This document shows, in pieces, positions 14,475 to 18,974 of a DNA stretch of 64,000 nucleotides. Position 1 is the stretch's first letter. Every line of letters starts with the position of its first letter. Origin of the DNA: Candidatus Zixiibacteriota bacterium (GTDB lineage: Bacteria; RBG-13-66-14; B26-G2; WVWN01); assembly GCA_030613505.1 (NCBI GenBank), contig JAUWLW010000009.1:5353-69352 (forward strand), written 5' to 3'. The translations under genes and the position numbers were made by a program. Under the pieces are notes generated by a model, which was given only the letters and a program-made list of their open reading frames with translations, made no database searches and was not told the origin of the DNA.

Positions 14475-15260
14475 CTAGACGCGCGATTTGACGCGGCTTC
14501 GTCGGCGTCGGACGATTTCGCCGGCGAGGCGCATGTACGCTTGCGCACCCGCCGACCGGCCGTCGAAGGTGATGGCCGGTTTTCCGCTGGCGGGCGCTTC
14601 GGCCAAAGCTACGCTCCGGGGTATTACGGTTTTGAATACGAGCCTGCCGAAGCGGCGGCGAAGGTCGCTCTCGACTTCGTGGGCGAGTTTCGTCCGCTCG
14701 TCATACATCGTCAACAAAAACCCCTCGATTTCGAGGTCGGGATTTACGCTGAGGCGGACTGTTTTGACGAGGCGGATAAATTGATCGAAGGCGTGGTAGG
14801 AATAAAATTCCGCTTGCACGGGGATTAGGACGGAATCGGCTGCGACGAGCGCCGATACCATCAAATGCCCCATACTCGGCGGCGAATCCATTATTATGTA
14901 TTCGTAGTCGTCGTCGAGTTCTTCCACCGAGCGGGCGAGCATAGTGCGGTTGAGGGAGGTCCGCATTATCTCGTCTTCGGCGTTGTTCGACCAGATGTTG
15001 TTGGGTATGACGTAGAGGTTGGGTATTTCGGTCTCGTGTATGCTGCCGGAGGCGGGGAAGTTGCGCATGAATATCTCGTACACGCCGCGGTAGAGCAAAT
15101 CCTGGTTGAAGTCCAACGCCACGCTGGCACAGGCTTGGGGGTCGAGGTCGACGAGAAGCGTATTTTTCTCCGCGACCGCGAGCGAGGCGCTCAAGTTCAC
15201 CGCGGTGGTAGTCTTCCCGACGCCGCCTTTTTGGCTGGCTACGGCGATTTTACGTGCCAT
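14475..15260 (-). CDS. ParA/Soj-family ATPase
   Basis: A 261-residue deviant Walker A ATPase: ASQKGGVGKTTTAVNL near residue 8 (signature Lys present), LLVDLDPQACAS near residue 38, and DSPPSMGHL near residue 125 as Walker B region. Such ATPases form nucleoid-bound gradients that position chromosomes, plasmids, chemosensory arrays or other cargo. There is no parB or parS-like array nearby. Instead it follows a 1181-residue coiled-coil gene by 31 bases on the same strand, so cargo positioning by that protein is the leading inference. The C-terminus is strongly basic (RRRRSRVKSR), which suits nonspecific DNA binding. Confidence 0.95.
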   Translation of the reverse strand: MARKIAVASQKGGVGKTTTAVNLSASLAVAEKNTLLVDLDPQACASVALDFNQDLLYRGVYEIFMRNFPASGSIHETEIPNLYVIPNNIWSNNAEDEIMRTSLNRTMLARSVEELDDDYEYIIMDSPPSMGHLMVSALVAADSVLIPVQAEFYSYHAFDQFIRLVKTVRLSVNPDLEIEGFLLTMYDERTKLAHEVESDLRRRFGRLVFKTVIPRSVALAEAPASGKPAITFDGRSAGAQAYMRLAGEIVRRRRSRVKSRV

Positions 15261-15291
15261 TAAGGTATAAGCTCCCGGCTCGCTGGTTGGG

Positions 15292-18200
15292 TTAGGCCGG
15301 CGGTTTGGTTTCGCTTGTGCGCTTCAGCGCTTCGTTTAAGATGACGTCGGAGCGCGCGAGTTTTTTCTGCAGGTCGTCGAGGCGGTCGCTGGTCGATTTT
15401 AAATTCGCCATTTTGGCGTCGATGTCTTTGGCGAGAAAGCTCACTTGGGCGAGCTTTTCGGCGACGGCGTCCACCCGTTTTTCTTCGTTCCGCAGCTGGC
15501 CCATTTTCTCTTCCAGGGCCGCCGCGGCGCGATTTATCTGTTCGAACCTGGCCTCGACTTTCTTGAGGTCGGCGCGTTTGGCGTTCACGTCGCGAACGGC
15601 CGCGGCGACGTCTTTGCGCGTCTCCGAAAGTTCGCTTAGCTGGCCCCGGATCTGGTTTATGGCCTCCGCCTCGCCCTTGAGGTCCGTCATACCGTCTTGG
15701 ACCAGGTCGTAATAGGCTTTGAGGTCGCGGACTTCGCGTTCGACCGCCGCCACTTCGTCCCGCCGTTGGCCCAGGACGCGCAGGCGTTCGTCGAGGTCTT
15801 CGGCCAACATGGTGAGGGCGTTCACGCGTTCGTCGACGGCGACGATGTCCTGGCTCCGCCGCTCGACGAGGGTGGCTTTGCGGGTCGCTTCCTGGGAGGC
15901 ATCCAGGATCTTCTCGAGGACGCGATTGACTTCTTTCTCCGTATCAGCGGCTTGCGCGGCGTGGGAGGAGACGCGGTCGTTGACGTCCGTTACCTCGGCG
16001 CGGAGCTCTTCGATCTTTTCCACTTCGCCGGCCAGCTCGTGCCTCAACTTGCCCTGGGCCGCCAGGGCTTTTTCGACCGCGGCGGCGCTCTCCTCGAGGG
16101 TGACGACTTTTTCGGCCAGGCGGTCGATCTCCTTCTCGGATTTGAACGTTGCCCGACGTTTGTCATCGAGAAGGGAGAGGTCTCGGTTGAGGTCGTCGAG
16201 GCGGGAGCTCAGCGCGTCGAGTTTGGCGTCCTCGCGGAGTACCGTCATCATGCGCCCGTCGATGTCTTTGAGGAGAGTGTCGATTTTTACGGTCTTGTCG
16301 TGGACGCTGGTAACCAGCTCCTCGCGGAGCCGGATCTCCTCCTGGCGTCGTTCGACTTGCTCGAGCGCTCCCTGCACGGATTTGTTCATACGGGCGAAAT
16401 CTTCTTGCGTTCGGCCGCGTTCCGTCCGATATTCGCCGAGTTCGCGCGACGCGGCCTCGGATACGCGGCCAAGCTCCTCCTGCGCCTTTTGAATATTCTT
16501 GATCTCCTGCGCCGCGGCCTCGACCCTGCCTGCGTCGGCCGTTATCTCGCGGATTTTATTTTCGACCTCGTCGAGGCGAGAGGCTCGAGCGGTGAAGGCC
16601 GCTTCGCGCGCTTTGTTCTCCGAGATTTGGTCGGCGACGGCGCGGGACATCGCGTCCGCCTCGGCCAGCCGCGTCTCGAGCATGCCGATTTTATCGTGTA
16701 ATTTCTCCATCGCAGGCGCTTGGGCTTGGACTTCGGCCAGGTCCGCCTTGACGGCCCGGAGCACCTCAGCTCGGTTATCTATGGCTTCCAGGGACGCTTC
16801 GGCTTCGTCCAGTTTGCTTTCGGCGAAGCCTAGTTTGCCGACGAGGTCTTCGGCGGTGCGCGATACCTTGTCGAAGTCGGCCCGGACGGTGCGGAACTCG
16901 GCCATCTGGCGTTCGAACGTCGCCACTTCGCGTGCGAAATCCTCTTGGCGGCCTTCGACATCGGCCAGCTTTTCCCGGATGCCTTGAACTTCGCGGAAGC
17001 GGTCGCGCGTTTCGGCCAGCGTCTCCTCCAGGTCGGCGACGCGCTTTTCGCCGTCGCGCACCATCTTCTGTTCTTCGGCCAGCTTCTTGATCCGAACGTC
17101 CATTTCCCACAGCAGGACGTCGAGCTTACCCGACTCCTCGTTGGCCTTGGTGATAAGTTCGCGTTGGTCTTCCAGCACGTGGATCTTGGTATTGATATGT
17201 TCGATAAGCGCGTTTAAGCGGTCGACGTTTTGCGACGCTTCGGTGTAGCGTTCGCGCTCGAGGCGGAGGGCGCCGAAATCCTCTTGGATTTTAGCGAGCG
17301 ATTTATCGAGGGTTTGAGCTCGGTCGGCCGCGTTGTTAAGCTCCTTCTGAGCCGCTCCGAAGCGAGTGTTGAAGTCGCCGAGTTTTTCGTCGATGCCGTT
17401 CATTTTCCCGAGTACGGCGTCGGCGCGTTTTTCGGCGCCGGCGAGCTCGGCGACGCGCTTTTCGAAGCCCTCGACTTTCTGGTCGATCTTAGTCGTACGG
17501 CCGGCCAGCGCGCCCACGCGACGTGAAGCGTCACTTACGCCGGCGTCGGCGTCTTTGAGCTCTTTGTGGATGTTATCTAGCGAACTTTTTACGCCGGCTA
17601 CGTCTTCGCGGTACTTTTGGGCTTCGCCGCGGACGCGATTGAGCTCGCTCTGGGCAGCTTTACCCTCGGCGGCAGCTTCTTTCGCCGCTTGGGTCGTGGT
17701 TTCGATCCGGGTTTTTATGGCGTCGATATTTTTCGCGGCCCTGGCTGCCTCGCTTAGTTTGCTCTCCAGGGGGGCGATTTTCGTGGCGACCTCTTCGGCC
17801 CGTTCGCGCAGCGTTTCCGTTTTGTTAGATAACGTCGTGATGGTTTTGGCGCGCTTCTCGAGTTGACCCAAGCCGCCCTCGATGTCCTTTAGGCGGTGTT
17901 CGATTCCGTCGCTCGAGATTTTGAGGGTACCCTTAAGGTTGGACAACGCGGTGGTTTGTTGGTCGGCAGTTTTTTTAGTATCGGCCAGCGACGATTTGAT
18001 TTCGGCAAGGGTTTGTTTATTGGCTTCGTTAACCTTGGCGGTCTTTTCGGCGGCGGCACCTGCGGCGCGGAGCTCGGCGCGGAATTCGGTCATTCGGCCG
18101 GCGGCTTTTTCAACGTTGTCCAGTTTGGCCCGGGCGGCGGCGATATCCTTTTCGACCGCTTTTAACTTCTTGGCCTGGTCGCCCACGCCTGCTACGTCTT

Positions 18201-18837
18201 TTTTGACGGATTTCAGCTCGGCATCGGCCCGGCCTATGCCCTGCACCGCGGTTTTGACCGCTTTGTCCAGATCGACGATTTGCGTCGCCAACGACGACAC
18301 GCGGTCGGCCGACTCGCGAACGCGGGCCGTAATTTTGTCCTCGGTACCTGCCAGCCTTTGGGTTATTTTAGCTATCTCCGCGTCCGTTCTCCGCAATTCG
18401 CCGAGTTTGGCCTCGAGTTTCGAAACGTCGCCGGCGGCGCGGCTTACGCTCTCGTTTAACGTACGCGCTTTTTTCTCGAGGGTAAGGAGGTCGGCCTGCT
18501 TTTCAGCCAGCGCGTTAAGTTGTTTCTCGACTTCTCCGGTTTTCGCGGCGGCCGCCGCGGTTTTTTCGGCGGTGGCGTCAACCTGCGCCGGCAGGCCTTT
18601 CGAGCTCTTGACCGCTCCGGCCAACGACGCGGCAGCAGCCTCGAACTCCTTGATTTTATTGTCGAGTTCGTCCGCTTTTTTGAGGTCGCGTTCGACTTTG
18701 GCCGCCCGAGCCGTTAGCTTCTTTTCCTGGTCCGAGGCTTTGTCGATTAGCTTTTTAAATTCGGCCGCCCGCTTATCGAAATACTCGCCGACCAGTTCCG
18801 GCGTTAACTCCTTCTTTTTTCCAAACAAGGGGGCCAT
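15292..18837 (-). CDS. Giant coiled-coil protein paired with ParA
   Basis: A 1181-residue protein that is almost wholly charged and heptad-patterned (Lys, Glu, Asp, Ala, Leu rich; few aromatics, few prolines), with no signal peptide or membrane segment. The start, MAPLFGKKKELTPELVGEYF, precedes the coiled coil, and the last part ends LNEALKRTSETKPPA. Repeat-like blocks such as 'LEDQRELI' and 'IKKLAEEQKMV' are separated by short breaks. It resembles SMC or cytoskeletal coiled coils only in composition; no ATPase head is seen. Its SD (GGGAGGTCC, 7 bases before ATG) and strong promoter (18946-18974) support expression. parA lies directly downstream. Function unknown; candidate polar or spatial organiser. 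Confidence 0.85.
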   Translation of the reverse strand: MAPLFGKKKELTPELVGEYFDKRAAEFKKLIDKASDQEKKLTARAAKVERDLKKADELDNKIKEFEAAAASLAGAVKSSKGLPAQVDATAEKTAAAAAKTGEVEKQLNALAEKQADLLTLEKKARTLNESVSRAAGDVSKLEAKLGELRRTDAEIAKITQRLAGTEDKITARVRESADRVSSLATQIVDLDKAVKTAVQGIGRADAELKSVKKDVAGVGDQAKKLKAVEKDIAAARAKLDNVEKAAGRMTEFRAELRAAGAAAEKTAKVNEANKQTLAEIKSSLADTKKTADQQTTALSNLKGTLKISSDGIEHRLKDIEGGLGQLEKRAKTITTLSNKTETLRERAEEVATKIAPLESKLSEAARAAKNIDAIKTRIETTTQAAKEAAAEGKAAQSELNRVRGEAQKYREDVAGVKSSLDNIHKELKDADAGVSDASRRVGALAGRTTKIDQKVEGFEKRVAELAGAEKRADAVLGKMNGIDEKLGDFNTRFGAAQKELNNAADRAQTLDKSLAKIQEDFGALRLERERYTEASQNVDRLNALIEHINTKIHVLEDQRELITKANEESGKLDVLLWEMDVRIKKLAEEQKMVRDGEKRVADLEETLAETRDRFREVQGIREKLADVEGRQEDFAREVATFERQMAEFRTVRADFDKVSRTAEDLVGKLGFAESKLDEAEASLEAIDNRAEVLRAVKADLAEVQAQAPAMEKLHDKIGMLETRLAEADAMSRAVADQISENKAREAAFTARASRLDEVENKIREITADAGRVEAAAQEIKNIQKAQEELGRVSEAASRELGEYRTERGRTQEDFARMNKSVQGALEQVERRQEEIRLREELVTSVHDKTVKIDTLLKDIDGRMMTVLREDAKLDALSSRLDDLNRDLSLLDDKRRATFKSEKEIDRLAEKVVTLEESAAAVEKALAAQGKLRHELAGEVEKIEELRAEVTDVNDRVSSHAAQAADTEKEVNRVLEKILDASQEATRKATLVERRSQDIVAVDERVNALTMLAEDLDERLRVLGQRRDEVAAVEREVRDLKAYYDLVQDGMTDLKGEAEAINQIRGQLSELSETRKDVAAAVRDVNAKRADLKKVEARFEQINRAAAALEEKMGQLRNEEKRVDAVAEKLAQVSFLAKDIDAKMANLKSTSDRLDDLQKKLARSDVILNEALKRTSETKPPA

Positions 18838-18945
18838 AACAGGACCTCCCGGCGGGCGCGACGTAACGCTCGACCGCCTACGCGCCGGCCAGACGTACGG
18901 AAGTTGAGTTTATATTATGATTTATAAAAATCCCTTAGAACTAAG

Positions 18946-18974
18946 AATATAGAATAATTAGCCAATAGCGTCAA
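18946..18974 (-). promoter_or_regulatory. Promoter of the coiled-coil/parA operon
   Basis: On the minus strand TTGACG (18974-18969), 17 bases, then TATATT (18951-18946). The region 18900-18970 is AT-rich in a GC-rich genome. The leader to the ATG at 18837 is about 100 bases. Confidence 0.7.

Follow-up and report, generated by a model that had tools for sequence, protein, structure and literature searches.

The gene for a 1181-aa coiled-coil protein and the parA gene downstream of it form a co-transcribed, conserved pair. We propose, with middling confidence, that this operon encodes a dedicated ParA-partner pair, in which an elongated coiled-coil scaffold would be matched with a ParB-independent ParA paralog whose pocket has been rebuilt for it. 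The conservation of the co-transcribed pair, the presence of a separate parAB, and the replacement of the ParB-binding pocket all support the reading of a dedicated ParA with a new partner. ParA-type ATPases are general positioning engines of bacteria, and for many of them, the orphan ParAs, no partner is known. In the present case, the partner is suggested by gene order, by a clade-restricted rebuilding of the pocket, and by a tail that is exclusive to the paired copies, and the hypothesis therefore yields residue-level predictions. The features discussed below are listed in Table 1; "the window" is the whole 64-kb stretch of DNA that was analyzed.

Table 1. Positions in the window of the two genes, their expression signals, and the protein segments discussed in the text
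Feature	Position	Strand	Remarks
Long coiled-coil protein gene	15292..18837	-	1181 aa; ATG at 18837; uninterrupted ORF; orthologs in 6 other genomes of the class
Coiled-coil-linked ParA-type ATPase gene (parA)	14475..15260	-	261 aa; ATG at 15260; uninterrupted ORF
-35 element TTGACG	18969..18974	-	Conserved in four congeners
-10 element TATATT	18946..18951	-	17-bp spacer to -35; conserved in four congeners
Shine-Dalgarno sequence GGAGGT	18844..18849	-	6 bp 5' of the coiled-coil ATG; conserved in four congeners
N-terminal tail of the coiled-coil protein, MAPLFGKKKELT	18802..18837	-	[FI]GKK motif; candidate ParA-activating peptide, proposed from PMC7993993
Conserved core of the coiled-coil protein, residues 534-604 (..KANEESGKLDVLLWEMDVRIKKL..)	17026..17238	-	From the alignment; defines the wider coiled-coil family
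ParA residues 90-97 (WSNNAEDE)	14970..14993	-	Remodeled counterpart of the canonical ParB-binding region; mapping via PMC12462528
ParA residue 218 (Ala)	14607..14609	-	Canonical DNA-binding Arg lost

Organization and conservation of the gene pair

Both genes are on the minus strand, with parA starting 31 bp downstream of the coiled-coil gene. The next gene past parA is mutL, which converges on parA, and there is no parB there. The ORFs, the 31-base gap, and the absence of parB that the initial annotation had described are therefore borne out, and so are the promoter and ribosome-binding site. The sigma-70-type promoter (TTGACG-17 bp-TATATT, 18974..18946) is 108 bp upstream of the coiled-coil ATG and is kept within the genus, in four congeners, while its flanks diverge. 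There is no exact parS core (TTTCACGTGAAA) within the 64-kb window.

Our phylum sample consists of 14 genomes, 7 of which, from four families, belong to the window's class. A long coiled-coil ORF is found directly upstream of a ParA gene, on the same strand, in 7/7 class genomes. The intergenic gaps are 31, 31, 31, 33, 68, 49, and 60 bp, the coiled-coil proteins are 1181, 1181, 1181, 1170, 952, 955, and 988 aa long, and parB adjoins the coiled-coil-linked parA in none of the seven. The congeners also share some flanking genes with the window, while in G004 and G005, two of the more distant genomes, the pair are the only genes in common with this part of it. The window and G006 share the ParA and two genes some kilobases away; the G006 coiled-coil protein is too diverged to be matched at that threshold, and its core is matched with an E value of 1.5e-7. 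The gene downstream of the pair varies between genomes, and the unit consists of two genes. Both are under purifying selection, with dN/dS values of 0.19 for the coiled-coil gene and 0.08 to 0.10 for parA. Based on these values and on the retention of the pair in every class genome, we conclude that the pair is not due to chance. The gene-neighborhood survey suggested by the initial annotation thus finds the pair conserved in relatives. The only carriers are these seven genomes, all in one class: in other phyla, no long coiled-coil ORF was found next to ParA among 93 ParA ORFs in 103 loci, nor was any such ORF found next to the ParA in the other top-scoring loci inspected.

The coiled-coil-linked ParA and its ParB-binding pocket

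The parA product is a true ParA, with a score of 171 bits to PF13614 and 216 bits to Myxococcus xanthus ParA (8RAY). In 6/7 class genomes, there is a separate canonical parA beside parB and/or gid genes; the exception is G002 (78% complete), in which no canonical parA locus was inspected. The ParAs linked to the coiled-coil gene (cc-ParAs) form one clade (support, 94/82), and a long branch (99/98) separates the canonical ParAs from them. When 386 genomes were searched with a cc-ParA profile, class members scored 443 to 492 bits and the next best protein scored 307 bits; the G002 cc-ParA, an incomplete copy with an N-run gap at the end of its parA, scored 370 bits. The Walker and switch residues K11, K16, D38, D40, Q42, and D125 are invariant in 7/7 cc-ParAs, which carry a deviant Walker A motif of the KGGVGKT type. 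The N44 position (N64 in M. xanthus, listed as catalytic) is Cys in all 7. The cc-ParA resembles the ATPase of the chromosomal ParA (Soj)/ParB-parS system, to which it is ~45% identical and with which it shares the same Walker and switch residues. It differs from that system in that it has no ParB neighbor, its ParB pocket is replaced, Arg218 is lost, the window has no exact parS core, and the genome has a separate parAB.

The M. xanthus ParA (8RAY) aligns with the cc-ParA without gaps, with its D60 equivalent to D40 here (an offset of 20), so that residues can be mapped directly. Sixteen ParB-pocket residues of M. xanthus ParA have been assigned by mutagenesis, modeling, and NMR (PMC12462528), and most of these, once mapped, are replaced in the cc-ParA. 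The cc-ParAs have Trp at position 90, Asn at 92, a residue other than Gly at 93, Asp or Glu at 96, mostly His at 132, a residue other than Glu at 156, Phe at 161, mostly Leu at 164, and Thr at 167. Divergence is concentrated at the 16 pocket residues (mean JS, 0.667 versus 0.281; p=1.4e-6), and the enrichment persists among columns that are conserved in canonical ParAs (p=1.3e-4) and in single cc-ParAs. The controls, which were the Soj proteins of the same genomes (p=0.96) and six single canonical rows, have no pocket enrichment. Y61, E62, and E97, which form the site that accepts the basic residue of the activator, are largely retained. Judged from these alignments, the rebuilding of the cc-ParA is selective for the ParB-binding pocket and leaves the Walker and switch residues unchanged.

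The DNA-binding surface gives a mixed picture. Many ParAs are held on DNA by an Arg at position 218. Residue 218 is Ala, Thr, or Glu in the six cc-ParAs that are readable there and Arg in none of them, and the R238E substitution in M. xanthus, at the equivalent of Arg218, abolishes DNA binding. Two other Arg residues of this surface, R189 and R215, are retained. Because Arg218 is lost, nucleoid binding by the cc-ParA is uncertain, and a loss of DNA binding is possible. We dropped the loss of Arg218 as proof that DNA is not bound, since Ala218 is also present in two ParB-linked ParAs. At the C terminus (window positions 14478-14510), the cc-ParAs of G000 and G001 carry an Arg-rich tail (RRRRSRVKSRV in G000) that is absent from the canonical ParAs compared; possibly, it is a replacement DNA- or membrane-binding element.

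The coiled-coil protein and its wider family

A hydrophobic repeat of 3.45 to 3.49 residues runs along the entire 1181-aa protein, with a windowed power of 9 to 25 versus ~3.4 +/- 1.3 for shuffled sequences, and the protein contains 7 prolines, 1 Trp, and no Cys. The AlphaFold2 model predicts helix from residue 13 to residue 1176 and no globular domain, with low confidence (pLDDT, 52.5). Low AlphaFold2 confidence is expected for a lone coiled-coil chain. A fold search with this low-confidence model gave nothing at an E value of ≤0.001. At the N terminus, [FI]GKK is found within the first 12 residues of 7/7 ParA-linked copies and 0/49 unlinked relatives (in the G007 relative, MGKK occurs at a possible internal start, but no Phe/Ile precedes the GKK). 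This short tail is only mildly basic, its charge being +1 to +3 across 9 residues. ParA/MinD partners usually act as activators through a basic N-terminal tail (PMC7993993), which makes the [FI]GKK tail a natural candidate activator.

The alignment of the coiled-coil proteins contains one strongly conserved stretch, the core at residues 534-604. A profile of this core (A3) has matches in 25/386 genomes, including nine outside the phylum at E values of <1e-18, and in 43/77 genomes of one other phylum. The core-bearing proteins of other phyla are mostly 745 to 790 aa long, contain motifs such as ANEEAGKLNVL.WDMES, and have varied neighbor genes; the core is 48% identical in the single protein from another phylum that was aligned. 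These proteins form an unnamed family that shares the ~70-residue core with the 1181-aa protein but has no adjacent ParA, no [FI]GKK tail, and a shorter region before the core. No ParA was found next to the unlinked core-bearing genes of other phyla in about 45 loci, and the P-loops seen at unlinked loci are GKGGVGKSS, which we judged to be of the Mrp type. Five phylum-mates outside the class also have a core-bearing coiled-coil gene, with no ParA beside it in the loci inspected. On the evidence of the shared core, the coiled-coil protein is a member of an unnamed family that spans several phyla and is not exclusive to the ParA system. In other phyla its relatives have no ParA neighbor, which suggests that the scaffold protein is the older of the two and that the ParA joined it in this lineage. 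The unnamed family, with its conserved core, is a candidate scaffold in its own right. More tentatively, and with more doubt than confidence, we suggest that it could be an undescribed multi-phylum cytoskeletal scaffold for which a class-specific ParA was recruited and its ParB pocket rebuilt, resulting in a ParB-less, possibly nucleoid-independent ParA system.

Two recurrent arrangements were seen at loci of unlinked family members. In one other phylum (L205-L237), an asd-like gene, a ~760-aa coiled-coil gene, and an mtnP-like gene form a recurrent conserved arrangement, the asd-like and mtnP-like names being judged from sequence. In the sister class (L143, L145, and L146, from G009, G007, and G010), the core-bearing gene is preceded by a 467- to 474-aa gene, the G007 copy of which carries an HD-GYP-type domain (PF13487).

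Possible mechanism, alternative readings, and cell context

The dedicated-pair reading is supported, at the level of sequence comparison, by the conserved pair, the intact Walker and switch residues, the selective loss of the ParB site, the predicted all-helical partner, and a tail that is specific to linked copies. In the mechanism that we infer, the 1181-aa protein would be an elongated, probably self-assembling scaffold, and ParA with ATP would dimerize on a matrix, most simply the nucleoid. Direct binding would occur through the basic N-terminal tail, which would dock at the ParA dimer interface via the rebuilt pocket; docking would activate ATP hydrolysis, and ParA would be released. Repeated binding and release could then move, center, space, or remodel the scaffold, in a manner roughly like that of PomZ with PomX. 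Nucleoid-based positioning is plausible but, with the canonical DNA-binding Arg218 lost, unproven. The initial annotation had proposed a new positioning or cell-shape module. The dedicated pair, separate from parAB and with its ParB pocket replaced, supports a dedicated ParA with a new partner, while cargo positioning or cell shaping is unsupported.

A ParA with a coiled-coil partner is already known from PomXYZ and Scy-ParA. In the PomX/PomY/PomZ system of M. xanthus, a ParA-type ATPase acts with a coiled-coil partner, PomX, whose N-terminal basic peptide is an activator and whose coiled coil forms filaments, and the system positions the division site (PMC7993993, PMC11725790). However, PomX is ~404 aa long with a long Ala/Pro-rich disordered N-terminal region, while here the tail is ~12 residues long and the rest is predicted helix. 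An N-terminal region of the PomX type is not found in the 1181-aa protein, which has so few prolines and is predicted to be helical from residue 13, and the operon has no third gene (PomY). In Streptomyces polarity, the 1326-aa coiled-coil protein Scy also binds a ParA (PMC3718342), but this is the chromosomal ParA rather than a dedicated paralog, and Scy is not reported as an operon partner. The McdA-McdB and PpfA-TlpT systems (surveyed in PMC10241942) are similar in that a dedicated ATPase is encoded beside a highly diverse partner or cargo gene; here, however, a giant coiled-coil protein takes the partner's place, and no relation to theirs was detected. We found no description in the open-access literature of a two-gene unit in which a dedicated ParA, its pocket remodeled specifically in its clade, is joined to a giant coiled-coil protein in which no globular domain is detected.

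Scy also suggests a different role for the ATPase, which we regard as unlikely but deserving of serious consideration: rather than moving the scaffold, ParA-ATP would bind the filament and promote or block its polymerization, setting its assembly state. Scy and ParA inhibit each other's polymerization (PMC3718342), and with Arg218 lost, the clearest argument for involving the nucleoid falls away. On the other hand, R189 and R215 are still present on the DNA surface, the host genus has the Arg-rich C-terminal tail, and Scy works with the chromosomal ParA, while the ParA here is a dedicated paralog. It is less probable still that the two genes share only a promoter, with the ParA serving an unlinked partner and the coiled-coil protein being a stand-alone structural protein. 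This would agree with the members of the coiled-coil family that have no ParA nearby, in the 5 phylum-mates and at the loci elsewhere, but the pair has been kept through four families while its neighbors changed, and the paired copies are set apart by both the remodeled pocket and the [FI]GKK tail.

The other alternatives concern the identity of the coiled-coil protein, and we give them little weight. It is very improbable that the pair organizes the chromosome, with the coiled-coil protein serving as an SMC/Rad50-like arm or as a tether and the ParA aiding DNA segregation. Although ParA is the classical segregation ATPase and there are subthreshold matches to the coiled-coil parts of the SMC and Rad50 models, the SMC score is 109 bits, far below the cutoff of 567, and involves internal coiled-coil parts only. 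There are no ATPase heads and no hinge domain, the low-confidence model is helical almost from end to end, canonical parAB is present separately, and the exact parS core is missing from the window. We rejected SMC and Rad50 as relatives, since these are coiled-coil background matches only, and the Pfam matches to BLOC1_2, NPV_P10, and Laminin_II were rejected as generic coiled-coil matches. Hardly credible at all is membership in SpiroCoCo, a known kind of spirochete coiled-coil protein. The whole-protein score of 170.9 bits is nominally above the NF047515 cutoff of 125, but it is a sum of overlapping partial stretches, each of ≤~60 bits and all below the cutoff, and none of the matches listed for the seven proteins extends past position 276 of the 313 in the profile. 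The single full-length NF047515 match is in a SpiroCoCo-type protein of G030 that has an N-terminal hydrophobic segment, lacks the conserved core, and is not near ParA; SpiroCoCo membership is refuted by the partial repeats of which the score is built. The coiled-coil gene, which the initial annotation had considered might belong to a known family with another function, is in no such named family.

With regard to the cell context of the dedicated pair, the initial annotation had drawn an analogy to chemoreceptor systems. This analogy is weakened, and a chemoreceptor cargo is unlikely, because CheW was not found in G004 to G006, i.e., in 3/7 pair-bearing genomes. The window's genome, the one genome tested for FtsZ, encodes both FtsZ and MreB, and MinC has no match in any of the 14 genomes of the phylum, whether or not they carry the pair. 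We rejected the idea that the pair replaces Min, since the absence of MinC does not track the pair; a division-site role for the pair is possible and likewise does not track it.

Two further ParAs were observed. G005 has a third ParA (L130:3550-5814), whose ParB pocket is diverged and which is preceded by a 452-aa protein without any Pfam match. In G203, an orphan ParA (L265:9075-15326) resembles the cc-ParAs in its W-S pocket motif (CNVWSD) and lacks a coiled-coil neighbor; it follows a response regulator and is ~3.7 kb upstream of a gene for an FtsZ-like GTPase.
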